This document shows positions 2,323-33,809 of a stretch of 64,000 bases of DNA, one piece after another. Source of the stretch: Herbidospora galbida (GTDB lineage Bacteria; Actinomycetota; Actinomycetes; Streptosporangiales; Streptosporangiaceae); the NCBI RefSeq assembly GCF_005233835.1, contig NZ_SZQA01000018.1:1-64000 (forward strand), given 5' to 3'. Within the stretch, counting starts at the first letter, position 1; each line of letters starts with the position of its first letter. The position numbers and the translations under genes were made by a program. Under the pieces are notes generated by a model. That model worked only from the letters and a program-made list of their open reading frames with translations, searched no databases and was not told the DNA's origin.

Positions 2323-3420
2323 TCAGCCCAGGTCGGCGATGGCGATGACCGGGCCGCCGCCGCTCGGGCCCTGGTGGACGGCCGCGACGCTGACGAAGAC
2401 GGCCGGGTCGCCCGTCACGCTGGCCGCGACGCCGCCCACGGTCGCCTTGATCTGGCGGTGCCAGTGGACGTCGCTGTCGTCGAGCATGATGTTCCTGCGG
2501 CCGCGCACGCTGCCCGTCGGGTCGGCCTCGCACTTCATGAACAGGTTGACCAGGCGGCCGCCCAGGTCGCTGGGGTGGGGGCGCTCCGGCAGGTCGATGC
2601 CCGCGTCGCGGATGGCCGCCCAGATGCCGTCGGTGTCGAGCGCGTCCTTCATGACCGAGTGGCCCGCGCGGTAGCGCCCGCCGATGCCGCGCACGTTGCC
2701 CACGACCACGATCTGGGCCACGTCGAGTTCGACGCCGCTCGAACACGACGCGACCGAGGAGTAGAGCGACAGGTCGCGGTGGATCTGGTCGGCCGACGGC
2801 ATCTCGATCTCGCCCAGCGCCACGGCGATGCCGAGGGCGGTCGTGGAGTTGGAGATGTCCATCGAGGGGCCGGTGTCCTCGGTGATCACGTCGTGGCCGC
2901 GGGACTTGGCGTCGTTGATGGTCGACAGGGTCAAAAGCGGGGTCTTGGTCTGCACGTAGTGGACGTCGCGCGGGTCGTCGATGCCGGCGATCTTCATCGC
3001 CTCGCGGACGCCGGCCGCGACCTTCTCGACCATGGCCGGGCGGCCGATGTCCTCGGGGAGGATGACCTCGCTCATGGCGATGCCCACGCTCAGCCGGGGT
3101 TCGTCGCTCTGGACCGCCGAGGCGGGGTCGACCGTGGCGAAGATCGTCGCGTGCGGCGACAGGACGCCGTCGGTGCCGCCCGACCAGACCAGCGGCACGC
3201 TCTCGGGCGACGGGTGGCCCCTGCTCGCCAGGACCTCGCGGAAGGCGCGGTCGGCCAGGATGCGGGTGTAGTCGTTGACGCCGCCGTTGCCCTCGGTCTT
3301 GCCGATGACGGCCAGCACGCGGGCGGCCTCGATCACGCCGTCGTCGATGAGCTTCGCGAGCCCGGACGCGTCGGTCACGCTCTCGATGGCGACCTTGCGT
3401 ACCTCGATGGGGTCCGGCAT
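2323..3420 (-). CDS. Ring-opening amidohydrolase (cyanuric acid hydrolase/barbiturase family)
   Basis: 365 aa, full length for the AtzD/TrzD/barbiturase family, which hydrolytically opens cyclic imides (cyanuric acid to carboxybiuret, barbituric acid to ureidomalonate). The fold has three repeats, each supplying a Lys-Ser pair. Visible candidates are K41 in GKTEGNGG with S80 in SGGTDG, K159 in QTKTP with S227/S228 in SCSSG, and K296 in FMKCEAD with S344 before HQGPSGGGP. The usual SGGTEG and SGGAEHQG motifs are altered ([15 protein letters not shown]), so the substrate may differ from cyanurate. The ATG abuts the TAG of carbamate kinase with no gap, so the two are almost certainly cotranscribed. 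The family is secure; the substrate is not. Confidence 0.9.
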
Positions 3421-4341
3421 CTAACTCTCCCGGTGAACCGTTGTACCGATATTTCCTGAAATGGCGGCGGCAATGTTGTCCAGCGACGTGATCACTGACT
3501 TGGCGCCGCCCTCCTCGACGAAGCGCAGCGCGGCCTCGACCTTCGGGCCCATGCTGCCGCTGGCGAAATGTCCCTCGGCCTGCAGTACCCGCATCTCCTT
3601 CGGCGTCACGCTCCCGATGGGACGGGCCTCGGGGGTGCCGTAACCGGCGATGGCGTGCGGGACGTCGGTCGCGATGACCAGGATGTCCGCCCCGACCGCC
3701 TGGGCCAGGGCGCAGGCCGCGTGGTCCTTGTCGATGACGGCCTCCACGCCGTGCAGCCGGCCCTCGGCGTCGCGCACGACCGGCACTCCCCCGCCGCCCG
3801 CGGCGACGACGGTGTAACCGGCCTCCATCAGCGCCACGGCCGGGGCGGCGTCGAGGATCTCCACCGGCCGGGGCGAGGCGACCACGCGGCGCCAGCCGCG
3901 CTCGAACTCCCGCCACGACTGGCCGAGCGCCTGGAAGCGCCGGGCCTCCACGACCGAGAAGTACTGCCCGATCGGCTTGACGGGGTCGTGGAAGGCCGGG
4001 TCGTCGGGGTCGACGAGGGTGCGGGTGACCACGGTCGCCGACGGGATCGGGTCGAGGGCGTTCATGATCAGGGCGCCGAGGGTGCCCTGGGTCTGGGCGC
4101 CGCACCAGTCGAGCGGCACCGGCGGGACCACGTGGGCGGTGAGCTGGTTCTTCAGCAGGATGTTGCCGACCTGGGGGCCGTTGCCGTGGGTGATCGCCAC
4201 CCGGTGGCCGTGGCCGATCAGGTCGGCGACGTGGGTCATGGCGCGCTCGATCGCGCGCTTCTGGTCGGCCGGGGCGGCGGAGCCGTCCGGCGCGGTCATC
4301 GCGTTGCCGCCGAGGGCGATCAGGACACGCTCACCCGTCAC
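3421..4341 (-). CDS. arcC: Carbamate kinase
   Basis: 306 aa, the normal length. The amino-acid-kinase fold begins with ALGGNAM. HGNGPQVG (near residue 53), the CGAQTQG segment and AAGGGGVPV are family signatures, as is the IDKDHAACALA segment. The enzyme interconverts carbamoyl phosphate + ADP and carbamate + ATP. In degradative pathways it makes ATP, with carbamate falling apart to CO2 and ammonia. No arginine deiminase or catabolic ornithine transcarbamylase is nearby, so the carbamoyl phosphate probably comes from another source. The candidate in this window is the FdrA-DUF1116 fusion at 31008-33809. GTG start. The gene lies 76 bp after the C45-type gene and directly before the ring-opening amidohydrolase. 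Confidence 0.93.
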   Translation of the reverse strand: MTGERVLIALGGNAMTAPDGSAAPADQKRAIERAMTHVADLIGHGHRVAITHGNGPQVGNILLKNQLTAHVVPPVPLDWCGAQTQGTLGALIMNALDPIPSATVVTRTLVDPDDPAFHDPVKPIGQYFSVVEARRFQALGQSWREFERGWRRVVASPRPVEILDAAPAVALMEAGYTVVAAGGGGVPVVRDAEGRLHGVEAVIDKDHAACALAQAVGADILVIATDVPHAIAGYGTPEARPIGSVTPKEMRVLQAEGHFASGSMGPKVEAALRFVEEGGAKSVITSLDNIAAAISGNIGTTVHRES

Positions 4342-6851: not shown

Positions 6852-7742
6852 ATGGCGAGGATCCGGGAGCTCGACGCCCTCAGGGGGTTCGCGGTCTGCG
6901 GGATCATGCTCGTGAACACCTGGCAGCACGCCGACCCGCGCCCCGTGGAGGGCGCCGCGTTCATGGCGTTCGTCGAGGGCCGGTTCTACCCGATCTTCTC
7001 GTTCCTGTTCGGCGTGAGCTTCGCGCTGTTCCTGCGCTCCCACGACGACCGGCTGATCATGCTGCGGCGGCTGGCCGTGCTGGCCCTGTTCGGCGTCGGC
7101 CACTGGTGGCTGATGCCCGGCGAGGTGCTGCTGCCCTACGCCCTGCTCGGCGCGGGCGTCCTGCTGCCGGCCAGCTACCTGCCCAAATGGCTCAACCCGG
7201 TGCTCGGTGTGGGCGTGGTGGCGTGGGCGGTGGCGCAGGGCAGCCCGTGGATCCTCATCGGCGGCCTGTTCCTGCTGGGCCTGGCCTGCGTCGACTACGG
7301 CGGGCCGAAACCGAGCCCGCTGGTCTTCGTGGCCGCCGTGGTCGCGGCGGTCGCGTTCTTCCCCTTCGGCGGGTTCCTCTCGGCGCTGGCCGGGGCGGCG
7401 GTCTACGCGTCGGGGTTCCTGCTGCTGAGCCCCCGGGTGTTCGAGCCGCTGGGGCGGATGGCGCTGACCAACTACGTGACGAGCTCGTTCGTCATCCTCG
7501 CGGCGCGGGCCGAGTCGTTCTCCGACGTCGTCGCGGTCACGGTGGTGACCCTGGTCGTCCAGTGGTGGTTCTCGGCGTGGTGGCTCTCGCGGTTCCGCTA
7601 CGGCCCCCTCGAATGGGTCTGGCGGTGCCTCACCTGGATGCGGCGGGTCCCCAACAGGCAGACTGGGGCAGGTGACCGTAGTAGCGCTGGGCCAGATCCC
7701 GATCGACCACGAGCCCAAGAAGAACCTGGAGACCGTGCGTGA
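6852..7742 (+). CDS. DUF418-type multipass membrane protein
   Basis: 296 aa. RIRELDALRGFAVCGIMLVN at the N-terminus is the DUF418/YeiB signature. About seven hydrophobic segments follow, and the C-terminal DUF418 part has RMALTNYVTSSF and FRYGPLEWVWR. The family is common in actinobacteria but has no established biochemical function; it is related to acyltransferase-3-like membrane proteins. The last 71 bases overlap the start of the nitrilase-family gene. The final 20 or so residues are polar and atypical, so the true fold ends near residue 265. Confidence 0.85.
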   Translation: MARIRELDALRGFAVCGIMLVNTWQHADPRPVEGAAFMAFVEGRFYPIFSFLFGVSFALFLRSHDDRLIMLRRLAVLALFGVGHWWLMPGEVLLPYALLGAGVLLPASYLPKWLNPVLGVGVVAWAVAQGSPWILIGGLFLLGLACVDYGGPKPSPLVFVAAVVAAVAFFPFGGFLSALAGAAVYASGFLLLSPRVFEPLGRMALTNYVTSSFVILAARAESFSDVVAVTVVTLVVQWWFSAWWLSRFRYGPLEWVWRCLTWMRRVPNRQTGAGDRSSAGPDPDRPRAQEEPGDRA

Positions 7743-8454
7743 GGCGCTCGCCTCGGCGGAGGCCGACCTGGTCGTCTTCCCCGAAGCCACGCTGAGCCGC
7801 TTCGGCCGGCACATCGGCGAGGTCGCCGAACCCCTCGACGGCCCGTTCGTCACCGGGCTCCGCGAGGCCGCCCGCGAGTACGGCACCGCCGTGATCGCCG
7901 GGGTCTGGGAGCCCGACGGGGGCCGCGTCGCCAACACGGCGGTCGCCGTCGACGCCGACGGGTCGCTGAAGGGGGCGTACCGGAAGATCCACCTGTTCGA
8001 CTCGTTCGGGTCGCGGGAGTCGGAGTTCGTCAGCCCCGGCCCCGAGCCGGTCGTGGCCGAGGTGGCCGGGCTGAGGGTGGGCCTGGCGACCTGCTACGAC
8101 GTGCGGTTCCCCGAGCTGTTCCGGAAACTGGTCGACCAGGGCGCCGACGTGTTCGCGGTGATCGCGGCGTGGGCGGCCGGGCCGCTGAAGGAGGACCACT
8201 GGACCACCATGGTCCGGGCCCGCGCGATCGAGAACACCACCTGGACCGTCGCGGTCGGCCAGCCGCCCCACGCCGACGGCTTCGGGGTCGGGCACAGCAT
8301 GCTCGTCGACCCGATGGGCGTGGTGACCAGGGCTCTCGGCCCCACGCCGGGCGTCGGCGCCGGCGTGATCGACGCGGCCCGGACCGAGACGGTCAGGGCG
8401 GCGCTGCCCTCCCTGCTGCATCGGCGATTCACAATCGGGGACATTGCCGGGTGA
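7672..8454 (+). CDS. Nitrilase-superfamily amidase (carbon-nitrogen hydrolase)
   Basis: 260 aa. The Glu-Lys-Cys triad of the superfamily is visible: E38 in VVFPEATLS, the Lys in AYRKIHLFD (about residue 107) and the Cys in GLATCYDVRFPEL (about 143). The KIHLFD and CYD.RFPEL signatures place it with the Nit/omega-amidase-like branch, which includes deaminated-glutathione amidase, so hydrolysis of a primary amide is likely. It is cytoplasmic. The GTG start at 7672 has GGGGCAG just ahead of it and lies inside the end of the DUF418 gene, so translation of the two is probably coupled. Confidence 0.87.
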   Translation: MTVVALGQIPIDHEPKKNLETVREALASAEADLVVFPEATLSRFGRHIGEVAEPLDGPFVTGLREAAREYGTAVIAGVWEPDGGRVANTAVAVDADGSLKGAYRKIHLFDSFGSRESEFVSPGPEPVVAEVAGLRVGLATCYDVRFPELFRKLVDQGADVFAVIAAWAAGPLKEDHWTTMVRARAIENTTWTVAVGQPPHADGFGVGHSMLVDPMGVVTRALGPTPGVGAGVIDAARTETVRAALPSLLHRRFTIGDIAG

Positions 8455-9463: not shown

Positions 9464-10963
9464 TCAGCTCGTGCCGACGGCCCGGTAGCGGGCGATCCGC
9501 CGGTTCACGCGATCACCGGCCGGTTCGGCCAGGAGCGTGGCGATCTCTTCCTCCAAGGCGCGGGCGACCCTCTTGGCGAAGGCGGGCTGTTCGTAGACCG
9601 CGTCGGGGCACTCGGCGATGATCCGGTCGACGATGCCGTCGCGCTTCAGGTCGGCCGCCCGCACCCCCTGCGCCTGGGCGATCTCGGGGGCGAAGTCGAC
9701 CGTGCGGTAGAGGATCGCCGACGCGCCCTCCGGGGGCAGCGGCGAGAGCCAGGCGTGCTGGGCGGCGAGCACCCGGTCGGCGGGCAGGAGCGCCAGGGCC
9801 GCGCCGCCCGAGCCCTGGCCGAGCAGCAGGCAGACCGTCGGGGCGTCGAGCATGACGAGGTCGGCGAGGGAGCGGGCGATCTCGCCCGCCAGGCCGCCCT
9901 CCTCGGCCGCCTTCGACAGTTCGGCCCCGGCCGTGTCGATGACGGTCACCAGGGGCAGGCCGAGCTCCTCGGCCAGTTTCATGCCGCGACGGGCCACCCG
10001 CAGCCCGGCCGGGCCGATCTTCAGGCCGGACCGCGCGCCGCGCCGGTCCTGGCCGAGCACCACCGCCGGGGCGCTGCCGAACCGGGCCAGGGCCAGCAGC
10101 AGCCCGGGGTCGCTCTCGCCCGCCCCGGTGCCGTTCAGCGGGGTGACGTCGGTGGCGGCCAGCCTCAGCAGGGTCCGGACGCCGGGCCGGTCGTCGCGGC
10201 GGGAGCTGACGATGGCGTCCCAGGCCGGGACGTCGGTCCTGGCCTCGGGCTCGGTGGCCGGCGGCGGCGCCGGGAGGTCCTTCGGCGCGCACAGCACGCC
10301 GAGCGCCCTGACGGCGATCTCGCGCGCCTGCGCCGCCGGGACCACCGCGTCGACCAGACCGTGGGCGAACAGGTTCTCCGACTCCTGTACGCCCTTCGGG
10401 AAGCGGTAGCCGTACAGGGACTCGAAGACGCGCGGCCCCAGGAAACCGATCATCGCGCCCGGTTCGGCGGCGGTGACGTGGCCCAGCGACCCCCATGACG
10501 CGAACACGCCCCCGGTGGTCGGATGGCGCAGGTAGACGACGTAGGGAAGCCCGGCCTCCTTGTGCGCCGTCACCGCGGCGGTGATCTTGATCATCTGGAC
10601 GAACGCCAGCGCGCCCTCCTGCATCCGGGTGCCCCCGCTGGCGGGCGCGGCCAGCAGCGGCAGCCGCTCGGCGGTGGCGCGTTCGACGGCGGCGACGAGG
10701 CGCTCTGCCGCCGCGACGCCGATCGACCCGGCCAGGAACGAGAACTCCCCGGCGACCACGGCGACCCGGCGGCCGTCGAGCCGCCCCTCACCGGTGACCA
10801 CCGACTCGTCGTAGCCCGACTTGTTCCGGGCGGCGGCCAGTTCGGCGGCGTAGTCGGAGCCGGGCGGGGCGATCTCCAGCGGTGGCCGGTCCCAGGAGAC
10901 CCACGAGCCGGGGTCGAGCACGACCTCGATCAGGGTGCGCGCGTCGGGTCTCTCGGGGGTCAC
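9464..10963 (-). CDS. Fused acyl-CoA carboxyltransferase (AccD + AccA halves)
   Basis: 499 aa. The N-terminal half is the AccD/PccB-type carboxyltransferase beta fold: VVTGEGRLDGRRVAVV, ASGGTRMQEG and HPTTGGVFASWGSLGHV form the acyl-CoA-binding crotonase-like core. The C-terminal half matches AccA-like alpha parts: GPAGLRVARRGMKLAEEL and the oxyanion-hole region VIDTAGAELSKAAEEGG. It should move a carboxyl group from biotin to an acyl-CoA. No biotin carboxylase or BCCP lies in this window, so those subunits come from elsewhere. GTG start with AGAGG ahead; it overlaps the stop of the CaiB-type gene (GTGA). The single-chain form is known in actinobacteria. Confidence 0.85.
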   Translation of the reverse strand: MTPERPDARTLIEVVLDPGSWVSWDRPPLEIAPPGSDYAAELAAARNKSGYDESVVTGEGRLDGRRVAVVAGEFSFLAGSIGVAAAERLVAAVERATAERLPLLAAPASGGTRMQEGALAFVQMIKITAAVTAHKEAGLPYVVYLRHPTTGGVFASWGSLGHVTAAEPGAMIGFLGPRVFESLYGYRFPKGVQESENLFAHGLVDAVVPAAQAREIAVRALGVLCAPKDLPAPPPATEPEARTDVPAWDAIVSSRRDDRPGVRTLLRLAATDVTPLNGTGAGESDPGLLLALARFGSAPAVVLGQDRRGARSGLKIGPAGLRVARRGMKLAEELGLPLVTVIDTAGAELSKAAEEGGLAGEIARSLADLVMLDAPTVCLLLGQGSGGAALALLPADRVLAAQHAWLSPLPPEGASAILYRTVDFAPEIAQAQGVRAADLKRDGIVDRIIAECPDAVYEQPAFAKRVARALEEEIATLLAEPAGDRVNRRIARYRAVGTS

Positions 10964-12117: not shown

Positions 12118-12186
12118 GATCGTCCTCCGATTTCGATGGGGAGCCCGCAGGCTACCCGTACCAACGGGGGCTGGCACGATCGGGGC

Positions 12187-20479: not shown

Positions 20480-20488
20480 CCGCGCCGC

Positions 20489-20847: not shown

Positions 20848-20869
20848 AGCATCCGGAGGGGGACCGACC

Positions 20870-22300: not shown

Positions 22301-22311
22301 GGTGCCCTGAC

Positions 22312-23220: not shown

Positions 23221-25580
23221 AGGTCGGACGGGGAGATCGGCATCTTGTCGACGACGATCTTCTCGGCGTCCTCGACCGCGCCGGCGATGACGGCGGAGAC
23301 CGGGATGACCCCGGCCTCGCCGGCCCCCTTGATGCCCAGGGGGTTGAGCGGGGACGGGGTCTCCAAATGGTCGGTCTCGATCTTGGGGATCTCGGTGACG
23401 TAGGGCATCAGGAAGTCCATGAACGAGGCGTTGAGCAGCTGGCCGTACTCGTCGTAGGCCATCTTCTCGTAGAGCGCCCCGCCGACGCCCTGGGCGACGC
23501 CGCCGTGGATCTGCCCCTCGACCAGCATCGGGTTGATCATCTTGCCGCAGTCGTGGACGACGGCGTACCGGAGGATCTTGATCTCGGCCGTGTCGGGGTC
23601 GGTCTCGACGATGGCGGCGTGCATGCCCGACGCGAACGTCGAGCGCACCGGCGAGTAGTAGTCCTTGCCCTCCAGGCCCGGCTCCTGGCCCTCGGCGACC
23701 GGGGGCCTGTCCATGCTGCCGCCGGTGGCGAACTGGGTGGCCCGCTTGGCCTCCTCGTCGAAGGCGTACCGCAGCGGGTTGGAGAGCACCGCGACGGTGG
23801 CGAGCGGGATCGAGGCGCTGGGCGCGCCCACGACGTGCACCATGCCGTCGGTGATCTCCAGGTCGGCCGGGTCGGCCTCCAGTGCGTCGGCGGCGATCCG
23901 GAGCGCCTTCTCCTTGACCTTCCGGCAGGCCAGGGCGATCGCGTTGCCGCTCATCACGGCGGCCCGGGAGGCGAACGTGCCGACGGCGTAGCCGAACCGC
24001 CGGGTGTCGCCGGTGACGACCGACACCTTCTCGATCGGCACGCCGAGCTCGGTCGCGGCGATCTGGGCGAACACCGTCTCGTGGCCCTGCCCCTGGCTGG
24101 TGAGCCCGGTGGAGACGTGGACGCGCCCGTCGGAGGTCACCTGGACGTGGCCGCCCTCATAGGGGCCCACGCCCGTTCCCTCGACGTAGCAGCCGACCCC
24201 GATGCCCAGCCGCCGGCCCTCTTTCCGGGCCTCGGCCTGCATCGCGGGGAAGTCGTCCCAGCCGATCAGGTCTTTCAGCTTGCGCAGCGACTCGGGGTAG
24301 TCGCCGCTGTCGTAGATCAGCGGACGGCCGTCCTGGAAGATCATCTGCTGGTCGTAGGGGAACTCGTCGGGCTGGATGAAGTTCGCCGCCCGCACGTCGG
24401 TGCGGTCCTTGCCCAGGTACTGGGCGATCTTGTCCATCGTGCGCTCCATGCAGAACACGCCCTGCGGGCGCCCGGCCCCCCGGTAGGGGGTGACCTGCAC
24501 GGTGTTGGTGTAGACGGAGAAGAACTCGACCCGGTAGGAGCCGATCTTGTACGGCCCCAGCAGCTGCGTCGAGGTGATGATCGGCACGATGATGCCGTAG
24601 GGCGTGTAGGCGCCGTGGTCGTGCAGGATCTCGACGTCGAGCCCGAGGACGCGGCCCTCGTCGTCGAACCCCACCTTGACGTGCTGCACCTGCGCCCGCT
24701 CGTGCGCCGAGGAGATGAAGTGCTCCCGCCGGTCCTCGGTCCACTTGACCTCGCGGTTCAGCAGCCGGGCCGCCCACGGGACCAGGATCTCCTCCGGCCA
24801 CGGGTGCACGATCTTCACCCCGAACCCGCCGCCGACGTCGGGCGCGATGACCTCGACCTTCGGCAGGGGCAGCCCGAGCTTGGCCGCGACGGCCATCCGC
24901 ACGCTCGTGGACGTCTGGGTGGAGCTGTAGACGCGCAGGGAACGGTCGTCGGCGTCCCAGCGGGCGTACACCCCCCTGCCCTCCATCGGCATGCACGCCG
25001 ACCGCTCGATGTCGAGCCGGAACTCCAGCGTGTGGGGCGCGGCGGCGATGACCTCACGGGTGGCGCGGCCGTCGCGGTGGGCGACCTCCTGCACCATGTG
25101 CGCGCCGATGTTGCCCGGCACGTCGTCGTGCACCAGGTTGGGCCCCTCGACCGCGTTCTCCAGCCCGACGACGGGCTTGAGGAACTCGTAGGAGACCTGG
25201 ATCCGCTCGCAGACGTCCTCGGCGATGTAGCGGTCGGCGGCCACGACCATGACGATCGGCTCGCCCACGTGCCGCACGACGTCCTTGGCCAGGCAGTAGG
25301 CGGTCCGCCCGTGGGTCAGCGCCGGATGGGGGATCAGCAGCGGCAGCGGCTCGCGCACCCCCTCGGGCAGGTCCTCCCACGTGTAGATCGCGACCAGGCC
25401 CTCGACGTCGATCGCGTCGTCGACGTCGATGCCGGTGATGCGGGCGTGCGCGTGCGGCGACCGGACGAACGCCACGGCCAGCGCGTCGGCGCCCAGGTCG
25501 TCGAGGTAGCGGCCGTTCCCGGCGACCAGCCGGGCGTCCTCCCTGCGGTGGACCGGCTCGCCGAACAGCTTCGTCGTCAC
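23157..25580 (-). CDS. Molybdenum hydroxylase large subunit (xanthine dehydrogenase/CODH-like form II)
   Basis: 807 aa. Starts VTTKLFGEPVHRREDARLV, the usual opening of CoxL/XdhA-like chains. The Mo-pterin regions are visible: PDVGGGFGVK, PYRGAGRPQG (the AYRGAGR form II motif, not the AYXCSFR loop of true CO dehydrogenase), SQGQGHETVF, and GIKGAGEAGVIP with the catalytic glutamate near the C-terminus. It should hydroxylate an N-heterocycle or aldehyde, not CO. GTG start overlapping the stop of the small subunit (GTGA). Context with an NCS2 base permease and PucR favours a purine or pyrimidine substrate. Its 3' end overlaps cydB. Confidence 0.9.
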   Translation of the reverse strand: MTTKLFGEPVHRREDARLVAGNGRYLDDLGADALAVAFVRSPHAHARITGIDVDDAIDVEGLVAIYTWEDLPEGVREPLPLLIPHPALTHGRTAYCLAKDVVRHVGEPIVMVVAADRYIAEDVCERIQVSYEFLKPVVGLENAVEGPNLVHDDVPGNIGAHMVQEVAHRDGRATREVIAAAPHTLEFRLDIERSACMPMEGRGVYARWDADDRSLRVYSSTQTSTSVRMAVAAKLGLPLPKVEVIAPDVGGGFGVKIVHPWPEEILVPWAARLLNREVKWTEDRREHFISSAHERAQVQHVKVGFDDEGRVLGLDVEILHDHGAYTPYGIIVPIITSTQLLGPYKIGSYRVEFFSVYTNTVQVTPYRGAGRPQGVFCMERTMDKIAQYLGKDRTDVRAANFIQPDEFPYDQQMIFQDGRPLIYDSGDYPESLRKLKDLIGWDDFPAMQAEARKEGRRLGIGVGCYVEGTGVGPYEGGHVQVTSDGRVHVSTGLTSQGQGHETVFAQIAATELGVPIEKVSVVTGDTRRFGYAVGTFASRAAVMSGNAIALACRKVKEKALRIAADALEADPADLEITDGMVHVVGAPSASIPLATVAVLSNPLRYAFDEEAKRATQFATGGSMDRPPVAEGQEPGLEGKDYYSPVRSTFASGMHAAIVETDPDTAEIKILRYAVVHDCGKMINPMLVEGQIHGGVAQGVGGALYEKMAYDEYGQLLNASFMDFLMPYVTEIPKIETDHLETPSPLNPLGIKGAGEAGVIPVSAVIAGAVEDAEKIVVDKMPISPSDLYALRDSSRTSGAVSLLRNTQ

Positions 25581-26053
25581 GGGCCCTCCTCGGCCATCAG
25601 CTCGGCGGCGCGGTGCACCGACTTCACGATGTTCTGGTAGCCGGTGCACCGGCACAGGTTCCCCGCCACCGCCTCGATCGCCTCGTCGTCGGCGGGCGCG
25701 GGGTTCTCGCGCAGGAACGCGGTCACCGTCGTGAGGAACCCGGGCGTGCAGAACCCGCACTGCAGCCCGTGGCACTCGGCGAAGGCCCGCTGCACCGGCG
25801 ACAGCTCGCCGTCCTTCGCCAGCCCCTCGACGGTGGTGACCTCCTGCCCGGTGACCGACACCGCGAAGGTCAGGCAGGCCCGCACCGGCTGCCCGTCGAG
25901 CAGCACCGTGCAGGCCCCGCAGACTCCGTGCTCGCATCCGACGTGGGTGCCGGTCAGCCCCAGGTCGTGCCGGAGGAAGTCGCTGAGCAGCCGCCGCGCG
26001 GGCACCCGCGCCTGCCGCGGCACCCCGTTGACGATCAGCGTGACCTCATGCAT
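25577..26053 (-). CDS. Molybdenum hydroxylase 2Fe-2S small subunit (CoxS-like)
   Basis: 158 aa. The N-terminal plant-type ferredoxin domain has GCEHGVCGACTVLLDG plus a later Cys (ACLTFA). The C-terminal helical domain has LQCGFCTPGF and NLCRCTGYQNIV. Together these bind the two 2Fe-2S clusters that carry electrons from Mo to FAD. The start ATG overlaps the end of the FAD subunit by 8 bases and the stop overlaps the large-subunit start, so all three subunits are translationally coupled. Confidence 0.93.
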   Translation of the reverse strand: MHEVTLIVNGVPRQARVPARRLLSDFLRHDLGLTGTHVGCEHGVCGACTVLLDGQPVRACLTFAVSVTGQEVTTVEGLAKDGELSPVQRAFAECHGLQCGFCTPGFLTTVTAFLRENPAPADDEAIEAVAGNLCRCTGYQNIVKSVHRAAELMAEEGP

Positions 26054-26858
26054 CGGCGGCCTCCTTCAGCGCGCGCTCGGCCAGCACCCCGGTCAGGTGC
26101 CGCCGGTAGTCGGCGGTGGCGTGGATGTCGGCCTCCGGCTCGATCCGCTCTCGTACGATCCGCGCCGCCCGCGCCCAGTCGCCCTCGGCCTCGGTGACGT
26201 CCACGACCACGGGCACCGCCCCGACGCTCAGGCAGGCGACCCGGGCGTGGTCGGGCCCGACCAGCGCCGCGACCCCGGCCATGGCGTAGTCGCCGTGCCG
26301 CCGCGCCACCTCGACGATCGCCGTCCCGCCTTCGGCGGCCGGGAAGAAGGCCGAAACGGCCAGTTCGCCGGTGCGCAGCGACGACTCCATCGGCCCGGTG
26401 AAGAATTCGGCGGCCGGGATGTCGCGTTCCCCTTCAGGCCCGCGCGCCCGGACCGAGCCGCCGAGCAGCGCCAGCACGGCCGGCATCTCGGCGGCCGGGT
26501 CGGCGTGCACGATGCTCCCCACGGTGGTCCCCCGGTTCCGGACCGCCGGATGGGCCACCAGCCGCAACGCCCTCCTGACCAGCGGCTGCGCGGCGAACGC
26601 GGTCTCACTGGCCTCGACCTCGGCGTGCCGCGCCAGCGCCCCGACCCGCACGCCCCCGGCCTCGGCGGTGATCTCCCCGAGCCCGGCCACGTGGTTGATG
26701 TCGACCAGCTGACCGGGCGCGGCCAGCCGCATGTTCATGAGCGGGATGAGGCTCTGGCCCCCGGCCAGCACCTTCCCGTCGGCCCCCGCCGCGGCGAGCG
26801 CCTCGACGGCCTCTGCCACCGTGGCGGGAGCGTGGTAGACGAAAGAAGGAGGCTTCAC
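26046..26858 (-). CDS. Molybdenum hydroxylase FAD subunit (CoxM-like)
   Basis: 270 aa. AGGQSLIPLMNMRLA near residue 36 is the FAD pyrophosphate-binding motif of the CoxM family, and RNRGTTVGSIVHADPAAE (about residue 108) is the second FAD motif. The C-terminal CO-dehydrogenase flavoprotein domain follows. The subunit takes electrons from the 2Fe-2S clusters and passes them to NAD, a quinone or O2. The GTG start abuts the TAA of the permease with no gap. Order on the strand is permease, FAD, 2Fe-2S, Mo subunit. Confidence 0.92.
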   Translation of the reverse strand: MKPPSFVYHAPATVAEAVEALAAAGADGKVLAGGQSLIPLMNMRLAAPGQLVDINHVAGLGEITAEAGGVRVGALARHAEVEASETAFAAQPLVRRALRLVAHPAVRNRGTTVGSIVHADPAAEMPAVLALLGGSVRARGPEGERDIPAAEFFTGPMESSLRTGELAVSAFFPAAEGGTAIVEVARRHGDYAMAGVAALVGPDHARVACLSVGAVPVVVDVTEAEGDWARAARIVRERIEPEADIHATADYRRHLTGVLAERALKEAADA

Positions 26859-28178
26859 TTAAACCGTTCTACTCCCAGAAAGGGCTCGCAGCAGGTGATA
26901 TCCGCCCAGGACGACGATCGTGCCCAGCGCGATCCCGGCCAGGGAGAAGTCGCCGGAGACCTGGTGCGTGACCGGGCCGATGGCCAGGATGATGCCCGCG
27001 CCGATCGGAACCATGTTGACGGGATCGGCGAAGTCGACCCGGTTCTCGATCCAGATCTTCGCGCCGAGGAGCCCGATCATGCCGTACAGGATGACCGTGA
27101 CGCCACCGAGCACGCCGCCGGGGATCGCGTAGACGAGCTGGCCGAACTTGGGCACCAGACCGAGCAGGATGGCGATCACGGCGGCGATGTAGTAGGCCAG
27201 CGTCGAGTAGACCCTGGTCGCGGCCATGACGCCGATGTTCTCCGCATAGGTCGTGGTGGGCGAGCCGCCGACGGCCGAGGTGACCACGGTGGCCACGCCG
27301 TCGCCGATGATCGCGCGGCCCATCACCGGGTCGACGTCGGCGCCGGTCATCTCACCCACGGCCTTGACGTGGCCGATGTTCTCGGCGATGAGGGCGATGA
27401 CGGCCGGCAGCACCAGGATGACGGCCGAGAGCTGGAACGTCGGCGCGTGGAAGTTCGGCAGGCCGAACCACTCGGCCTGCTCCACCCCGGCGAAGTTGAC
27501 GCGGAAGTGGGTGGTGACCTTGCCCGCGCCGTCGGGGGCGGTGATCTGGCCGAAGATCAGATCGGCGCCCCACGACAGCAGGAAGCCGATGACCAGCCCG
27601 AGCAGGATGCCGAGCCGGCCGATGAACCCCCGGAAGGTCGCGATGATCACGAAGACGACGACCATCGTGATGAGCGCGATCCAGTGGTCCTGCGGCCAGT
27701 AGATGTCGGCCACGACATAGGCCAGGCCGAACCCGATGAGCATGACCACCGCGCCGGTGACCACAGGAGGGAAGATCCTGTTGATCGCGCCGACGCCCAT
27801 GAAGTGGATGAGCACGCCGCACAGCGCCAGCACGACGCCCGCGACGAGGATCGCGCCGGTGATCACGGCCGGGGAGCCGCCGGAGGCGGTGATCGCCAGC
27901 GCGCCGCCGACGAACGACGCCGAGGTGCCGAGATAGCTGGGCACCTTCCCCTGGACGATGAGCAGGAAGATGATCGTCGCGACGCCGCTCATCATCACCG
28001 CGACGTTGGGGTCGAGCCCCATCACCACGGGGAAGACGAACGTGGCGCCGAACATCGCGATGACGTGCTGGGCGCCGAACCCGATCATGCGCGGCCACGA
28101 CAGCCGCTCGTCGGGTCTGACCACCTCGCCCGGTGCGAGCGTGCCCTTTTCTCCGTGTACCTTCCACCCGAAAGCCAT
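26859..28178 (-). CDS. NCS2-family nucleobase permease (uracil/xanthine type)
   Basis: 439 aa from the ATG at 28178, chosen because AAAGGGG lies 6 bases ahead; an upstream in-frame start at 28205 is less likely. It has about 12-14 membrane helices. FGAQHVIAMFGATFVFPVVMG opens the fold. IAENIGHVKAVGEMTG carries the conserved substrate Glu of helix 8, and SPTTTYAENIGVMAATRV is the helix-10 motif. The sequence looks nearer UraA/RutG-type pyrimidine permeases than XanQ, but specificity is not certain. It is the first gene of the molybdenum hydroxylase operon, so it probably imports that enzyme's substrate by proton symport. Confidence 0.9.
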   Translation of the reverse strand: MAFGWKVHGEKGTLAPGEVVRPDERLSWPRMIGFGAQHVIAMFGATFVFPVVMGLDPNVAVMMSGVATIIFLLIVQGKVPSYLGTSASFVGGALAITASGGSPAVITGAILVAGVVLALCGVLIHFMGVGAINRIFPPVVTGAVVMLIGFGLAYVVADIYWPQDHWIALITMVVVFVIIATFRGFIGRLGILLGLVIGFLLSWGADLIFGQITAPDGAGKVTTHFRVNFAGVEQAEWFGLPNFHAPTFQLSAVILVLPAVIALIAENIGHVKAVGEMTGADVDPVMGRAIIGDGVATVVTSAVGGSPTTTYAENIGVMAATRVYSTLAYYIAAVIAILLGLVPKFGQLVYAIPGGVLGGVTVILYGMIGLLGAKIWIENRVDFADPVNMVPIGAGIILAIGPVTHQVSGDFSLAGIALGTIVVLGGYHLLRALSGSRTV

Positions 28179-28249
28179 GTGAGCCCCTTTGCCATGGGCC
28201 GACACCTGGTGGCCACCCCGCGGGCTTCCCAGCGCGGCAAATCGTTCAG

Positions 28250-28332: not shown

Positions 28333-29943
28333 TCAGATGCCGCGCATGTTGAGGACATGGAGCGCCAGCGTGAGGTTGAGGCGCAGATGGGCGTCTTCGG
28401 TGAAGTTGCCGAGCAGGCGTTCGAGCTTGCCGATGCGGTAGCGCAGGGTGTTGTAGTGGAAGTGCAGCCGCCGGGCGGTCTCCGCCACGTTGAGGTTGGT
28501 CTCCAGCAGCACGTGCAGGGTGCGCCGCAGGTCGGCGTTCTCGGCGTCGTCGTCGCCGGCCAGCGCGCCGAGGGTCTCGCGGACGAACGCGTGCAGCTCG
28601 GCGGTGTCGTTGACGAGCGACAGCAGGCGGTAGACGCCGAGCTGGTCGAAGTGGGCGACCGCGCCGTTGCCGTGCAGCTGGCGGCCCACCCGGGCGGCCT
28701 TGAGCGCCTGGGCGTAGGCGTCGGCGAGCCCTTCGGCGCCGGAGGCGATCCGGCTCATGCCGGTGGAGAAGGTGCACTCGGCGAACGCCGACTGGGCGGC
28801 GGTGGCGAGGCGGGCGGTGTCGACCCCGGCCCCGACGATGACGACGACCTCGTGGGAGAACCCGGCGACCGCGCCGCGCGGGTCGTGGCGGCGTACGGCG
28901 GCCTGCCAGACGGCCAGCAGCCGATCTTGGGCGGTGCGCTCGTCGCTCTCGGGGTCGAGTTCGGCGACCATCACGCTGACGGGGCGCTCCAGGTCCCAGC
29001 CGAAGGCCTTGGCGCGTTCGGCGATGCGCCCGCCGCCCCGGCCGGTGAGCACGTCGCGCAGGAAGTCGGCGCGGTACTTGCTCTCGACCGCGTTGACGGC
29101 CTCCTGCTTGGTGATGACGAGGGCGGCGACGGTGGCGGCCCGCTCCAGGATGCGGATGTCGCTCTCGCGCAGGGTGCCGGCCTGGCTGAAGGCGACGATC
29201 CGGCCGTGGTGGTGGCCGCCGGCCACTATCGGCACGACGGCGTAGTGCCCGTCGGCCCGCACCATCGGCTCGGGCTGGTCGCGGCCCGGCCCGCTGATCA
29301 TGTACGCGTCGCGCAGCATCGCGACCTGCTCCGAGCCTCCGGCGGCGGCCAGGGTGGCGCCCGAGACGTCCATGGCGGCGACCGCGACCTCCAGCAGGCC
29401 GGCGACCTCGGCGGTCACCTCGCGCATGCCGCCGCCCGCGAGCACGATCTGGACGAGCCCCCGGTGGGCGTCCTCGGCGCGGGCGAGGATGGCGGCCTGC
29501 CGGTTGAGGATGTCGGTCAGCACCTGATTGAGGATGTCGTCGAACCCAACGTCGTTCGGCAGGATGATCAGCGGGAAGCCGAGCCGGTCGGCCTGCTCGA
29601 TCATCTCGGCGGGCAGCTCGTCGAGGTACCGGCCCAGTTTGATGGCGAGGGCCGAGAGCCCGCGTTCGTCAAGATCCGCCACAAGGCGGCCCAGCGACTG
29701 GGGAGTGTTCCTGAGCGGGTAACCGGTCGTGAGCAGCAGTTCGTTGGGCTTCACCCACGCCAGGATGTCGGGCACCTCCATGACGTTGAGGCGCTGGACG
29801 ATGCGGTCGAGCCCGGATCGCCCGGCGATGAGCCGCGCCCCGGCGAGGGTCGACACTCCCAGGACCTCTCCGACGGCCACCCCGTGGATGATCGTTCCGG
29901 TGCTGGCGAGCCGCATGGCGGGTGCAGCGGGATCCGTCGTCAT
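28333..29943 (-). CDS. pucR: PucR-family transcriptional regulator
   Basis: 536 aa. Residues about 20-140 are the PucR N-terminal purine-catabolism regulatory domain (VGEVLGVSTLAGARLIAG, PDILAWVKPNELLLTTGYPL). A GGDEF-like/GAF-like middle follows. The C-terminal HTH_30 domain reads LHVLLETNLNVAETARRLH then HFHYNTLRYRIGKLERLLG. PucR activates purine catabolic genes in Bacillus, and related proteins control ureide and nucleobase use. It sits between the permease/Mo hydroxylase operon and the divergent DUF2877/FdrA-DUF1116 genes, so it is the prime candidate to control both. It shares a 165-bp divergent region with them. Confidence 0.9.
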   Translation of the reverse strand: MTTDPAAPAMRLASTGTIIHGVAVGEVLGVSTLAGARLIAGRSGLDRIVQRLNVMEVPDILAWVKPNELLLTTGYPLRNTPQSLGRLVADLDERGLSALAIKLGRYLDELPAEMIEQADRLGFPLIILPNDVGFDDILNQVLTDILNRQAAILARAEDAHRGLVQIVLAGGGMREVTAEVAGLLEVAVAAMDVSGATLAAAGGSEQVAMLRDAYMISGPGRDQPEPMVRADGHYAVVPIVAGGHHHGRIVAFSQAGTLRESDIRILERAATVAALVITKQEAVNAVESKYRADFLRDVLTGRGGGRIAERAKAFGWDLERPVSVMVAELDPESDERTAQDRLLAVWQAAVRRHDPRGAVAGFSHEVVVIVGAGVDTARLATAAQSAFAECTFSTGMSRIASGAEGLADAYAQALKAARVGRQLHGNGAVAHFDQLGVYRLLSLVNDTAELHAFVRETLGALAGDDDAENADLRRTLHVLLETNLNVAETARRLHFHYNTLRYRIGKLERLLGNFTEDAHLRLNLTLALHVLNMRGI

Positions 29944-30108: not shown

Positions 30109-31011
30109 GTGGCTGTAGGTACGCGCCCTCGAAGCCGCCGCCCGGTGCAGACGGCGCAGCCCGAGGTCACGTACCTGTCCGGGGCCGCCGCCACCAGTCT
30201 CCGGCCGCTTCTGGAGGCCCCGCGCCGCCCCGCCCGGGTACTGGCCGCCTTCCCGTTGGCGGTCTACCTGGAGGTGCGGACCGAGACCGAGCCGCGCGTG
30301 CTCGCGCTCGTCTCGGGTGAGGCCACCCGCCTGCCCAACGCCGTTGTGCTCACCGGCGCGCTGGAGGGTTTCGCCCCAGGCGACGACGCGTGGGTCGGCG
30401 ACGGGGTCGTCGAGGCCGGCGGCCGTGCCGTCCGGGTCCGCCGCTGGTGGGACCCCGCTCCGCCGCTGGGTTCGGTCTCCCGTACGGCCCTCGCCGGGTC
30501 GCTCCCCGTCCTCCACGACATCTGCGTCTCCTCCCCCCGACGGCCCGGCCTGGAGAGCGGCGGCGCGTCCGCGCTGCTGTCGGCCGGCTGTCACCGGGGC
30601 TCGCTCGTCGACGCGATCACCGCGGCCGAGCAGCTCATGGGCCTGGGGCCGGGCCTGACGCCGAGCGGCGACGACATGCTGGCCGGGCTCCTGGTGACCC
30701 TGCGCTCGGTCGGCACGGCGGCCGGGGTCGGCCGGGCCGTGTGGCTGGCCGACTGGCTCGCCGCGGCGGTGACCTTCGACGCCCGCACCCGGACCACACC
30801 GATCTCCGCGACGCTGCTGCACTGCGCGGCGCGCGGCGAGGCGGGCCTGGAGACCCTCGCGGTGCTGCGCGGCCTCACCGGCCGCCAGCCGCTGGAACCG
30901 GCGGCGCACCGCCTGCTCCGCCTGGGTCACACCTCGGGCGCCGACCTGGCATGGGGCATCCGGACGGGAGTGTCGGCCGTCCTCGGACTTGGTGAGAGGG
31001 ACGCTGAGTGA
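30109..31011 (+). CDS. DUF2877 protein, AllH/YlbF-like oxamate carbamoyltransferase component
   Basis: 300 aa from GTG 30109, with GAGGGAGG 4 bases ahead. The DUF2877 hallmark GLGPGLTPSGDDMLAGLLV lies near residues 182-200, preceded by a Gly-rich stretch (GCHRGSLVDAITAAEQLMG). In E. coli the homologous gene (ylbF/allH) sits with fdrA (allF), ylbE (allG) and a carbamate kinase gene (allK), and that set is implicated in converting oxalurate plus phosphate to oxamate and carbamoyl phosphate. Here it overlaps the FdrA-DUF1116 gene by 4 bases (GTGA), so the proteins probably form one complex. The exact substrate in this organism is unknown. Confidence 0.85.
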   Translation: MAVGTRPRSRRPVQTAQPEVTYLSGAAATSLRPLLEAPRRPARVLAAFPLAVYLEVRTETEPRVLALVSGEATRLPNAVVLTGALEGFAPGDDAWVGDGVVEAGGRAVRVRRWWDPAPPLGSVSRTALAGSLPVLHDICVSSPRRPGLESGGASALLSAGCHRGSLVDAITAAEQLMGLGPGLTPSGDDMLAGLLVTLRSVGTAAGVGRAVWLADWLAAAVTFDARTRTTPISATLLHCAARGEAGLETLAVLRGLTGRQPLEPAAHRLLRLGHTSGADLAWGIRTGVSAVLGLGERDAE

Positions 31012-33809
31012 ACCTGGTGGAGATCCGTCCGGGGGTCTATCACGACTCGGTCAGCCTGATGAGGGTCAGCCAGGCGCTGACCGGCCGCCCGGGGGTCGAG
31101 CTGGCGATCGTGGCGATGGCGACGGCACTGAACGTCGAACTCGCCGCGGACGCGGGCTTCGACGTCCCGGCCGCGACGGCCGGCGACCTGCTGGTCGCGA
31201 TCCGGGCGAAGACGGACGCCGACCTCCACGACGCCGCCGCCGACCTGGAGCAGCAGCTGTCGGCGCGGGCCGAGACCCGGAACCGGGAGGAGGCCCTCCC
31301 CCGCACGATCCGGGCCGCCACACGCCTGGCCGACCCGTCGGCGGTCGTGCTGGTCAGCGTGCCGGGCGAGCACGCCTTCACCGAGGCGATGGAGGCGGTC
31401 GACGCCGGCCACTCCGTGATGATCTTCAGTGACAACGTGCCGGTGGCGCGGGAGGTGACGTTGAAGGACCTCGCGCTTGAGCGCGGCGTCCTGGTCATGG
31501 GCCCCGACTGCGGCACTGCCATCGTCGGCGGCGCGGGCCTGGGCTTCGCCAACGTCGTCCGCCCTGGCCGGGTCGGCGTGGTCGCCGCCTCAGGAACCGG
31601 CGCCCAGCAGCTCACCGCCCTGCTCGACCTGGCCGGAGTGGGCGTCAGCCACGTGCTCGGCGTCGGCGGCCGCGACCTGGGCGCCGAGGTCGGCGGCCGG
31701 TCCACCCTCCAGGCCCTGGACGCCCTCATGGCCGACCCGGCGACCGAACTCATCGTCGTGGTCTCCAAGCCGCCCGACCCCGACGTGGCCGCCCGCCTGG
31801 ACGAGGCGATCGCCCGGAGCCCCAAGCCCGTGATCACGGCCCTGCTCGGCGAAGGCCGGCCCGACCTGACCACGGCGGCCGAGTCGGTGCTGCGCGCCGT
31901 CGGCGCCGAGATCCCGGTCTGGCCGAGCTGGCCCGGGAACACCGAGCCCGGCGACGGCCCCCTGCGCGGCCTCTACTCGGGCGGCACCCTGTGCACCGAG
32001 GCCCGCCTGATCGCCGGCACGGGCGACTTCACCGACTTCGGCGACGACGCGTACACCGTGGGCCGCGCCCACCCCATGATCGACCCCGCCCTCCGCCTGG
32101 AGGCCCTCGGCGCGGTGACCGACGGCGTCGTCCTCCTCGACGTCGTCCTGGGCCACGGCTCCGACCCCGACCCGGCCGGCTCCCTGTCGGCCGCCGTCGC
32201 CGCCGCGAAGTCGCGGGGCGTGGCCGTGGTGGTCGCGCTGGTCGGCACGGAGGGCGACCCCCAGAACCTCGAGGCCCAGGCGGCCCGCCTGTTCGAGTCG
32301 GGCGCCGAGGTCTACACCTCGAACGCCCAGGCCGCCCGGAGAGCCGCGACACTCGCGGGTCACCCGGTGTCCGGGCCTCCCGACGCACCGGTGCGGGCCG
32401 ACGGCGGGTCGGGCTCCGAGGCCGGGCGTCCGTTGGCCATGCTCTCGGCGGAGCCCTCGGTCATCTCCGTGGGGGCGTCGATCCTGGCCGAGTCGCTCGA
32501 CCGGCAGGCCGTCGCGCACACGCCCGTCGACTGGCGTCCTCCGGTGACGGGCGTGGCCGCAGACCTGGCGGCCGTCATGGCCGATCCCCGGCGCGGGGCC
32601 GCCAACGAAAAGGCCGTCGGCAGGCTGCTGAGCGCGCGGCCGCATCTCGTCGGGGTGAAGCGGGCCGGAGACGTACTGGACCTCCCGAAGGGGACCTTCT
32701 TCCACGCCGGGCCGCCCATCGAGTGGGAACGGGCCTCCGGTCCCATGCGGGGCGCGCTGATCGGCGGGATGCTGTTCGAAGGGCTCGCGGCCGACGCCGA
32801 GGAGGCCGAGCGGAAGCTCGCGGGCGGCGAGGTCAGGCTCGACTCCTGTCACCACCACCGGACCGTCGGGCCCATGGCGGGCGTCGTGTCGCCGTCCATG
32901 TGGATGCTGGAGGTGCACGACGCCGAGAACGGCGGCACCGCCTACTGCTCACTCAACGAGGGTCTGGGCAAGGTGCTCCGCTACGGCGCCTACGGGCCCG
33001 AGGTGATCGAGCGGCTGCGGTGGATGGGCGAGGTCCTGGGCCCGGCGCTGGCCGAGGTCATGAAGGTCACCGGCCCGCTCGACCTGCGCAACCTGATCGC
33101 GCAGGCCCTCCAGATGGGCGACGAGCTGCACAACCGCAACCGGGCCGCGACCTCCCTCATGGTCAGGGAGCTCGCCCCGGCCATCGTGGACGCCGTCCCG
33201 AACCAGGCGGCCGAGGTCCTCCGGTTCGTCAACGGCAACGACCACTTCTTCCTCAACGCCGGCATGGCGGCCGCCAAGGTCGCCGCCGACGCGGCGCGGA
33301 ACGTCGAGGGCTCCTCGATGGTCGTCGCGATGGCCCGCAACGGCACCGACTTCGGCATCCAGGTCTCCGGCCTCGGCGACCGCTGGTTCACCGGCCCGGC
33401 GGGCGTCCCCGACGGCCTCTATCTCGGCGCCTACGGCCCCGCCGACGCCAACCCCGACATCGGCGACTCGACCATCACCGAGACGGTCGGCCTGGGCGGC
33501 TTCTCGATGGCCGCCGCGCCGGCGATCGTCCGGTTCGTGGGCGGCGACGTCGCCGACGCGGTCGCCGCCACCACGGCCATGTACGAGATCACTCTCGCCG
33601 AGCACCCCGTTTACCAGATCCCGGGTCTCGGGTTCCGCGGCACGCCCGCCGGGATCGATGTCACACTGGTCACGCGGACCTCGGTGCTGCCGGTAGTCAA
33701 TACGGGTATCGCCGGGCGCGTCGCCGGAACGGGGCAGGTCGGAGCGGGTTTGGTGAGTCCTCCGATGGAGGCTTTCACCGCCGCGTTGGCCGCTTTGGCC
33801 CGGGTTTAA
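31008..33809 (+). CDS. FdrA-DUF1116 fusion (AllF-AllG-like carbamoyltransferase)
   Basis: 933 aa. Residues about 1-465 are an FdrA-type succinyl-CoA-synthetase-like chain: VEIRPGVYHDSVSLMRVS, VMIFSDNVPVAREVTLKDLA, LVMGPDCGTAIVGG, VGVVAASGTGAQQLTALLD, and VVLLDVVLGHGSDPDPAG. After a 40-residue Gly/Ser/Ala linker, residues about 510-933 are DUF1116 (YlbE): ANEKAVGRLLSARPHLVGV, DSCHHHRTVGPMAGVVSPSM, HNRNRAATSLMVRELAP, and NGNDHFFLNAGMAAAK. In E. coli these are separate proteins, so this is a natural fusion that fixes 1:1 stoichiometry. Expected chemistry is phosphorolysis or transfer of a carbamoyl group. GTG start overlapping the DUF2877 stop. Confidence 0.88.
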   Translation: MNLVEIRPGVYHDSVSLMRVSQALTGRPGVELAIVAMATALNVELAADAGFDVPAATAGDLLVAIRAKTDADLHDAAADLEQQLSARAETRNREEALPRTIRAATRLADPSAVVLVSVPGEHAFTEAMEAVDAGHSVMIFSDNVPVAREVTLKDLALERGVLVMGPDCGTAIVGGAGLGFANVVRPGRVGVVAASGTGAQQLTALLDLAGVGVSHVLGVGGRDLGAEVGGRSTLQALDALMADPATELIVVVSKPPDPDVAARLDEAIARSPKPVITALLGEGRPDLTTAAESVLRAVGAEIPVWPSWPGNTEPGDGPLRGLYSGGTLCTEARLIAGTGDFTDFGDDAYTVGRAHPMIDPALRLEALGAVTDGVVLLDVVLGHGSDPDPAGSLSAAVAAAKSRGVAVVVALVGTEGDPQNLEAQAARLFESGAEVYTSNAQAARRAATLAGHPVSGPPDAPVRADGGSGSEAGRPLAMLSAEPSVISVGASILAESLDRQAVAHTPVDWRPPVTGVAADLAAVMADPRRGAANEKAVGRLLSARPHLVGVKRAGDVLDLPKGTFFHAGPPIEWERASGPMRGALIGGMLFEGLAADAEEAERKLAGGEVRLDSCHHHRTVGPMAGVVSPSMWMLEVHDAENGGTAYCSLNEGLGKVLRYGAYGPEVIERLRWMGEVLGPALAEVMKVTGPLDLRNLIAQALQMGDELHNRNRAATSLMVRELAPAIVDAVPNQAAEVLRFVNGNDHFFLNAGMAAAKVAADAARNVEGSSMVVAMARNGTDFGIQVSGLGDRWFTGPAGVPDGLYLGAYGPADANPDIGDSTITETVGLGGFSMAAAPAIVRFVGGDVADAVAATTAMYEITLAEHPVYQIPGLGFRGTPAGIDVTLVTRTSVLPVVNTGIAGRVAGTGQVGAGLVSPPMEAFTAALAALARV

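Follow-up and report, generated by a model that had tools for sequence, protein, structure and literature searches.

We analysed a 64,000-nucleotide stretch of Herbidospora galbida DNA (contig NZ_SZQA01000018.1 of assembly GCF_005233835.1, positions 1 to 64,000), referred to throughout as the window. It carries a gene cluster of certain Actinomycetota that, judged from its genes, looks able to degrade uracil via barbiturate while conserving some of the energy in the form of ATP, rather than following the textbook route with its release of urea. The cluster encodes a barbiturase-type ring opener, a carbamate kinase, a molybdenum (Mo) hydroxylase and homologues of the Escherichia coli AllFGH proteins. 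The H. galbida genome comprises 8.3 Mb in 116 contigs, and the G+C content of the window is 71.6%. In such high-GC DNA the GC3-based gene caller merges or misplaces some frames, and gene order was therefore taken from tblastn positions. The core genes of the cluster are:

2323-3420, minus strand: barbiturase-type ring-opening amidohydrolase of the AtzD/barbiturase family (TIGR02714, 529 bits; PF09663, 486 bits)
3421-4341, minus strand: carbamate kinase (NF009007, 281 bits, passing its cut-off of 266; TIGR00746, 330 bits, below its cut-off of 358)
13115-14935, minus strand: HyuB-like subunit of the hydantoinase/oxoprolinase/caprolactamase family (profile matches; in 9/9 relatives examined)
14922-16940, minus strand: HyuA-like subunit of the same family (profile matches; in 9/9 relatives examined)
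18798-19448, minus strand: CoxG-like protein, companion of the Mo hydroxylase (PF06240, 93 bits)
23157-25580, minus strand: molybdopterin subunit of the Mo hydroxylase, with the start chosen within a longer open reading frame (ORF), 23157-25937 (CODH_aero_grp5, 1533 bits)
25577-26053, minus strand: 2Fe-2S subunit of the Mo hydroxylase (PF01799, 107 bits)
26046-26858, minus strand: FAD subunit of the Mo hydroxylase (PF00941, 151 bits)
26859-28205, minus strand: NCS2 permease of the uracil/xanthine type (PF00860, 257 bits; best model RutG, 364 bits, below its cut-off of 759)
28333-29943, minus strand: PucR-type transcription regulator, divergent from allH and kept beside the cluster in relatives (PF07905, 126 bits)
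30109-31011, plus strand: AllH (DUF2877) subunit, oxamic-transcarbamylase-like (PF11392, 91.5 bits)
31008-33809, plus strand: AllF (FdrA, about residues 6-455) fused to AllG (DUF1116, about residues 532-923) (NF004760, 376 bits, below its cut-off of 433; PF06545, 326 bits)

The profile matches upheld the family assignments of an earlier sequence-only reading, namely an AtzD/barbiturase-family ORF, a DUF2877 protein and an FdrA-DUF1116 fusion. AllF and AllG form a single ORF of 933 aa that overlaps AllH by 4 bases. Barbiturase and kinase had been described as fused at zero spacing. No base lies between them, but since the stop codon of the kinase touches the ATG of the barbiturase, the phrase holds in the sense of adjacency, and these are two separate genes. 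The minus strand between the two arms carries the genes for PucR, the NCS2 permease, the three Mo hydroxylase subunits, CoxG, HyuA and HyuB.

By sequence, the ring opener is a barbiturase. It matched the solved barbiturase 5hwe with 585 bits and the best cyanuric acid hydrolase (6bum) with 321 bits. In a genome search the 5hwe sequence was 100% identical to a gene of Rhodococcus erythropolis NBRC 15567 (locus L100), and the window protein is 74% identical to this barbiturase. At position 191 the window protein has Asn, and so do 5hwe and all 134 of the other aligned rows that are 60% or more identical to the window. The equivalent position is Arg in all three solved cyanuric acid hydrolases that were aligned, and the window protein does not carry this conserved domain B Arg; two of four distant relatives aligned have Arg and two have Asn. 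According to the accessible part of PMC4051656, this Arg position is where barbiturases depart from most other family members, and glutamine is the residue named; the asparagine aligned here, 32 residues after the catalytic Lys, thus differs from the residue given there. Identities to the window split cleanly, with none of 139 values (window included) between 43% and 62%. The PF09663 bit score fails to separate the types (one genome, G340, scored 515 bits at 42% identity to the window), and class was therefore assigned by identity to the window, using the fetched stretches for the 25 other phylum matches. The substrate had been left as a cyclic imide by the sequence-only reading; it can be narrowed to barbiturate.

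AtzD proteins at two further loci (L097 and L098) are 39-40% identical to that of the window, have Asn at position 191 like barbiturase, and are encoded next to an amidase. They possibly represent a second barbiturase-like group with a hydrolytic route.

The sections of Kim and Kim 2024 (PMC11326118) available to us describe E. coli AllF-AllG-AllH as an oxamic transcarbamylase, with kinetics for carbamoyl phosphate plus oxamate. The same sections assign a catabolic carbamate kinase to allK in the allFGH operon, and present AllFGH with this kinase as a module leading from oxalurate through carbamoyl phosphate to ATP. All three subunits of an oxamic transcarbamylase-like set are present in the window. 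Identity to the E. coli proteins was 38% for AllF, 46% for AllG, 33% for AllH (over 134 residues) and 40% for AllK/YbcF, so that the proposed homology of the DUF2877 and FdrA-DUF1116 proteins to AllFGH was borne out (33-46% identity). The carbamate kinase of the cluster is the sole copy found in the genome. Oxalurate is HOOC-CO-NH-CO-NH2 and ureidomalonate is HOOC-CH2-CO-NH-CO-NH2. The two differ by one CH2, which makes the barbiturase product, ureidomalonate, the next higher homologue of the substrate reported for AllFGH.

Co-occurrence across genomes had been set beforehand as the test, a lack of it being the result that could refute the proposed link between ring opener and AllFGH; the genomes instead showed a near-perfect association. 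We examined 376 genomes of the phylum, counting as strong AllG any PF06545 match of at least 302 bits. PF09663 was found in 26 genomes and PF06545 in 46, of which 29 reached 302 bits and 17 had weaker matches only (134-247 bits). The barbiturase-type gene was present in 21 genomes (that of the window, and 20 others whose gene has 67-76% identity to the window's), and strong AllG accompanied it in 21/21, compared with 8 of the 355 genomes lacking it (Fisher p 3e-28, kinship ignored). Those eight had no PF09663 match. No AllG match was found in the five genomes with a distant PF09663 protein (G199, G330, G340, G341 and G446; 39-42% identical). Barbiturase and AllG shared a contig in 16 of the 21 genomes and lay within 10 kb of each other in 12. 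Kinship among the sampled genomes makes the p-values look stronger than the independent evidence warrants, and more weight falls on the sharp division between sequence types and on the gene runs of other families.

The carbamate kinase lies in one co-directional run with AllFGH in loci L081 to L088, while in the window the two share a cluster at a distance of 26 kb. Barbiturase, carbamate kinase, all three AllFGH components and Mo hydroxylase subunits occur together at four loci (L081, L082, L086 and L090). At L086 eleven co-directional genes encode barbiturase, a cytosine-deaminase-like amidohydrolase (233 bits with the best model, which has a cut-off of 438), a permease, the kinase, AllH, AllF, AllG, the FAD, FeS and Mo subunits and CoxG; two overlaps among its ten gene boundaries (184 and 70 bases) are approximate, being derived from mixed ORF and tblastn limits. 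L091 has the same core with a gap before the Mo subunits, and carries an NCS1 permease of the cytosine/uracil type. The run from barbiturase to AllG is present at L083, L084, L085 and L087, the last two of which stop at contig ends; no Mo subunit was found at L083 within its 20 kb. At L088 the kinase lies with AllFGH, and ABC-transporter genes lie towards the barbiturase. A further genome (G224, locus L092) has a run of an amidase plus AllFGH plus kinase.

The same association was seen in the window's own family, represented by 150 genomes (strong AllG here being PF06545 at 299 bits or more). PF09663 was found in 94/150 and PF06545 in 96/150. Counting any AllG, 89 genomes had both, 5 had PF09663 only, 7 had AllG only and 49 had neither; counting strong AllG, the corresponding numbers were 89, 5, 1 and 55 (Fisher 7e-34, kinship ignored). 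PF09663 is thus common in some lineages and rare overall (94/150 in this family vs 26/376 in the phylum). The two genes shared a contig in 60 genomes, and 58 of these pairs were divergent as in the window, at 21-104 kb. We read nine of the 60 clusters, picked for compactness or completeness. Barbiturase, HyuB, HyuA, CoxG, the Mo large and FAD subunits, the permease, PucR and AllF/AllG were common to all nine; carbamate kinase was not found in one (G007), nor AllH in another (G063). Among the 30 best-scoring loci of the family, 28 had the kinase within 0.4 kb of the PF09663 gene. In two genomes with PF09663 and no AllG (G045 and G093) the kinase was not found at the locus either.

In an AllG tree, 30 barbiturase-linked rows fell on one side of a branch with support of 98/92; these represent 29 genes, the window and L001 being the same gene. 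Outside it were E. coli and 16 other unlinked rows, two of them from R. koreensis, which has a barbiturase elsewhere in its genome. Five rows from Mo hydroxylase-HyuAB or permease-AllFG contexts joined the thirty at 90/85. Besides the window, 14 of 38 own-family rows were kept for the tree, and a match had to span 330 or more query residues to enter it.

We also compared 80 named loci, some of them cut short. The kinase was present in 73/80, each time directly upstream of the barbiturase. The seven loci without it were five of Rhodococcus/Rhodococcoides, one of Arachnia and one of a Streptosporangiaceae metagenome-assembled genome. The PF06545 search was run on 40 of the 80 genomes, and gave AllG at 306 bits or more in 35/35 outside the Rhodococcus group; of the five Rhodococcus/Rhodococcoides genomes, four had no AllG match and R. 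koreensis had two weaker ones only (251 and 245 bits). The kinase was not found at the barbiturase locus in this group, the search being of the locus only. A PF01425 amidase (L100:11233-12726) adjoins the barbiturase of R. erythropolis, and homologues occupy the same place at L102 and L125. It was at least 77% identical in 5/5 Rhodococcus-group genomes, with coordinates fitting a place just after the barbiturase. At that identity it was found neither in the 35 other genomes nor in the window's genome (best elsewhere 52%), and in the window's genome no homologue was detected at E 1e-100. In three genomes with no AllG (G330, G446 and G341), the gene for a distant AtzD protein likewise has an amidase or amidase homologue beside it.

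The oxidative pyrimidine pathway, with barbiturase and ureidomalonase, was reportedly worked out in R. erythropolis. As published, it ends in malonate plus urea through ureidomalonase (PMC3758960, in the part accessible), which makes the PF01425 amidase a candidate for the ureidomalonase gene; none was named in the openly accessible full-text literature that we searched. All five Rhodococcus/Rhodococcoides genomes had urease alpha, as against 6 of the 35 remaining named genomes (p 0.0007); one of those six matches was partial. Urea avoidance as a general reason for the AllFGH-kinase module was set aside as a hint only: the Rhodococcus group is one lineage, and the window's genome has urease, so that urea avoidance cannot be the reason there.

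Taken together, these findings lead us to propose, at a probability of about 0.72, that the cluster encodes a variant of the oxidative pyrimidine pathway that is phosphorolytic and conserves energy, and in which barbiturase, AllFGH and carbamate kinase would act in turn. Uracil would enter through the NCS2 permease and be oxidised to barbiturate by the Mo hydroxylase, and the barbiturase would open the ring to ureidomalonate (3-oxo-3-ureidopropanoate). The AllFGH-type transcarbamylase would then convert ureidomalonate and phosphate to malonamate and carbamoyl phosphate, from which carbamate kinase would transfer phosphate to ADP, yielding ATP, CO2 and ammonia. Malonamate would be deamidated to malonate. 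The sequence from uracil through barbiturate to ureidomalonate, offered in the sequence-only reading as one concrete case, is now the best-supported one. Uracil as the feed is also indicated by the cytosine-deaminase-like gene, by the NCS1 permease of L091, and by a uracil phosphoribosyltransferase gene divergent from the R. erythropolis barbiturase at L100. The proposal draws on the family assignments, the barbiturase-type sequence, the linkage across Actinomycetota families, and the Rhodococcus amidase where AllFGH and kinase are missing. Every catalytic step in H. galbida is a prediction from sequence, and this applies most of all to ureidomalonate as an AllFGH substrate and to what becomes of malonamate. 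Three further genes of the window were annotated:

7672-8454, plus strand: nitrilase-superfamily amidase (PF00795, 174 bits)
9464-11470 (ORF limits; true start likely internal), minus strand: acetyl-CoA carboxylase-type carboxyltransferase (PF01039, 187 bits)
10960-12396 (ORF limits), minus strand: class III CoA-transferase (PF02515, 405 bits)

The amidase is a weak candidate for malonamate amidase, and a CN_hydrolase gene also occurs in the run at L090 (genome G267). The CoA-transferase might activate malonate. Among the 80 named loci, homologues of the CoA-transferase were found in 44, of the carboxyltransferase in 16, of HyuB in 51 and of HyuA in 41, many loci being cut short.

The Mo hydroxylase is labelled CODH_aero_grp5 by NCBIfam (1533 bits, over a cut-off of 950). 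The motif AYxCSFR is that of the large subunit of aerobic carbon monoxide dehydrogenase. It is absent from the Mo large subunit at 23157-25580, where PYRGAGRPQ is present, and carbon monoxide dehydrogenase was therefore rejected as the identity of this enzyme, although the model passes. Because the motif is missing and the Mo subunit tracks the barbiturase, the label is probably misleading.

HyuA and HyuB were part of the conserved cluster and absent from the earlier scheme. We do not favour HyuAB as the malonamate enzyme, as the R. erythropolis locus has HyuA too, although no malonamate should arise there. Runs of Mo hydroxylase-HyuA-HyuB-AllF-AllG were found in three genomes with no PF09663 (G181, G284 and G306; loci L192, L194 and L195). 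Lying between Mo hydroxylase and AllF where barbiturase is missing, HyuAB may be another ring opener that feeds AllFGH in these genomes. Two other genomes without PF09663 (G162 and G177; L191 and L200) have permease-AllF-AllG runs on short contigs of 8.2 and 6.5 kb.

These five barbiturase-free runs show that AllFGH can go with other ring chemistry, and they bear on the possibility that in the window, as in E. coli, AllFGH and kinase work on oxalurate, which would derive from an oxidised ring such as allantoin or parabanate; the module would then sit in one nucleobase-degradation cluster with barbiturase but leave the barbiturase product untouched. Oxalurate/oxamate is moreover the reported AllFGH substrate pair. 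We nevertheless regard this as unlikely. AllD (ureidoglycolate dehydrogenase, TIGR03175) gave no match in the genome at E 0.001, the E. coli control being detected, and allantoin was rejected as an oxalurate source on this ground. Oxalurate use would also sit poorly with strong AllG in every barbiturase-type genome of the phylum sample, with an AllG group linked to barbiturase that excludes the E. coli enzyme, and with the amidase that stands beside barbiturase in the Rhodococcus group, which has neither strong AllG nor a kinase at the locus. The ring opener might also be a cyanuric acid hydrolase and the module one for s-triazine breakdown, since NF052395 (cyanuric acid amidohydrolase, NCBIfam) matches it at 461 bits, over a cut-off of 360. 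Despite this match we rejected that identity, as the protein is far closer to 5hwe and has Asn191 where the solved hydrolases have Arg; with a uracil-type permease in the window and cytosine-deaminase-like neighbours in relatives, an s-triazine module is very improbable.

In a different account, ureidomalonate follows the published pathway and is hydrolysed, giving urea and malonate, and the kinase belongs to an arginine deiminase pathway. The sequence-only reading had stated that no arginine deiminase or catabolic transcarbamylase explains the kinase. This stood for those ORFs of the window that were scanned with Pfam or NCBIfam, among which neither was found, but not for the genome: on contig C43 an arginine-deiminase-like gene (460.7 bits against a cut-off of 489) lies about 2 kb from a PF02729 transcarbamylase-family gene, one of three PF02729 matches in the genome, while the kinase is on C27. 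With those two genes 2 kb apart, and with one kinase copy found, the single kinase could serve arginine; a urease in the genome also favours this account. Against this account, the kinase touches the barbiturase in the window, adjoins it in nearly all named and own-family loci as described above, and no homologue of the Rhodococcus amidase was found in the genome at E 1e-100. We consider hydrolysis to urea improbable: less probable than oxalurate use, more probable than s-triazine breakdown.

Several observations weigh against the phosphorolytic pathway itself. AllFGH acceptance of ureidomalonate is a prediction, and the only gene proposed for malonamate amidase is the weak nitrilase-family candidate. 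HyuAB is conserved yet has no place in the proposed scheme. In the window the barbiturase/kinase arm and the AllFGH arm are 26 kb apart on opposite strands, the genome has a urease, and the sole kinase may serve both the pyrimidine and arginine pathways. No kinase was found in the stretches fetched for L080 and L089, and the Arachnia locus (L117) lacks it though the genome has AllG. Three own-family genomes that have PF09663 and a kinase at the locus, but in which no AllG was found, also tell against a strict link: G094 (only 78% complete), G099 (100%, with 8% contamination) and G068 (95%).

Other genes of the window were noted in passing. An M55 (DppA-type) D-aminopeptidase ORF (1462-2280, minus strand) lies directly downstream of the barbiturase. 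Cytochrome bd oxidase subunit genes lie within the cluster at 20711-23220 (plus strand), with a second subunit II gene at 44987-46135 (minus strand); bd-type genes adjoin the cluster in three relatives (G147, G107 and G010). A serine hydroxymethyltransferase ORF (48180-49532, minus strand) has a ZMP-ZTP riboswitch (49473-49554, minus strand, 57.5 bits) at its start. In the region 61531-63769 (plus strand) an agmatinase/arginase-family ORF (61578-62801) carries a Guanidine-I riboswitch (73.9 bits) at its 5' end and is followed by an ORF for an ABC-type substrate-binding protein; this region is a candidate guanidine hydrolase operon.

The earlier proposal thus becomes a well-supported genomic prediction that joins two known half-pathways. 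A full-text search found no publication linking barbiturase with carbamate kinase, DUF1116 or oxamic transcarbamylase; most subscription papers lay outside the search, so that novelty is unproven. If the prediction is true, an ATP-yielding, urea-free branch is added to pyrimidine catabolism, the AllFGH enzymes identified in 2024 gain a second natural substrate, and the amidase beside the Rhodococcus barbiturase offers a candidate gene for ureidomalonase. The oxidative pyrimidine pathway was called rare in a 2013 paper (PMC3758960, in the portion accessible). At even odds, in our judgement, AllFGH plus kinase could be a general acyl-urea carbamoyl-phosphate plug-in for various ring openers (in E. 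coli the allantoin enzymes, in the window barbiturase, and in G181, G284 and G306 perhaps HyuAB) and the main oxidative pyrimidine route of Actinomycetota, with the urea route a Rhodococcus-lineage exception in which the module was swapped for the amidase, the missing ureidomalonase gene.

The window resembles three known systems. With the oxidative pyrimidine locus of Rhodococcus it shares the barbiturase-type gene, Mo hydroxylase, CoxG, a RutG-like permease, HyuA, the CoA-transferase and the carboxyltransferase; it differs in having the kinase and AllFGH, whereas the Rhodococcus loci lack the kinase, their genomes lack strong AllG, and an amidase stands beside the barbiturase. The four gene families AllF, AllG, AllH and AllK are the same as in allFGHK of the anaerobic allantoin pathway of E. 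coli. Unlike E. coli, the window pairs the module with barbiturase and Mo hydroxylase rather than with allantoin genes, its genome gives no AllD match, its AllG falls on a separate branch, and its AllF and AllG are fused. In ammonia-oxidising archaea and Nitrospira, according to the part of PMC12625717 that we could consult, allFGHK lies beside biuret hydrolase, oxalurate is proposed as the substrate, and no atzD genes were found in the nitrifier genomes studied. On that description the nitrifier and window clusters are alike in placing an AllFGH-kinase module next to a ureide-degrading enzyme, which is biuret hydrolase in the nitrifiers and barbiturase in H. galbida.

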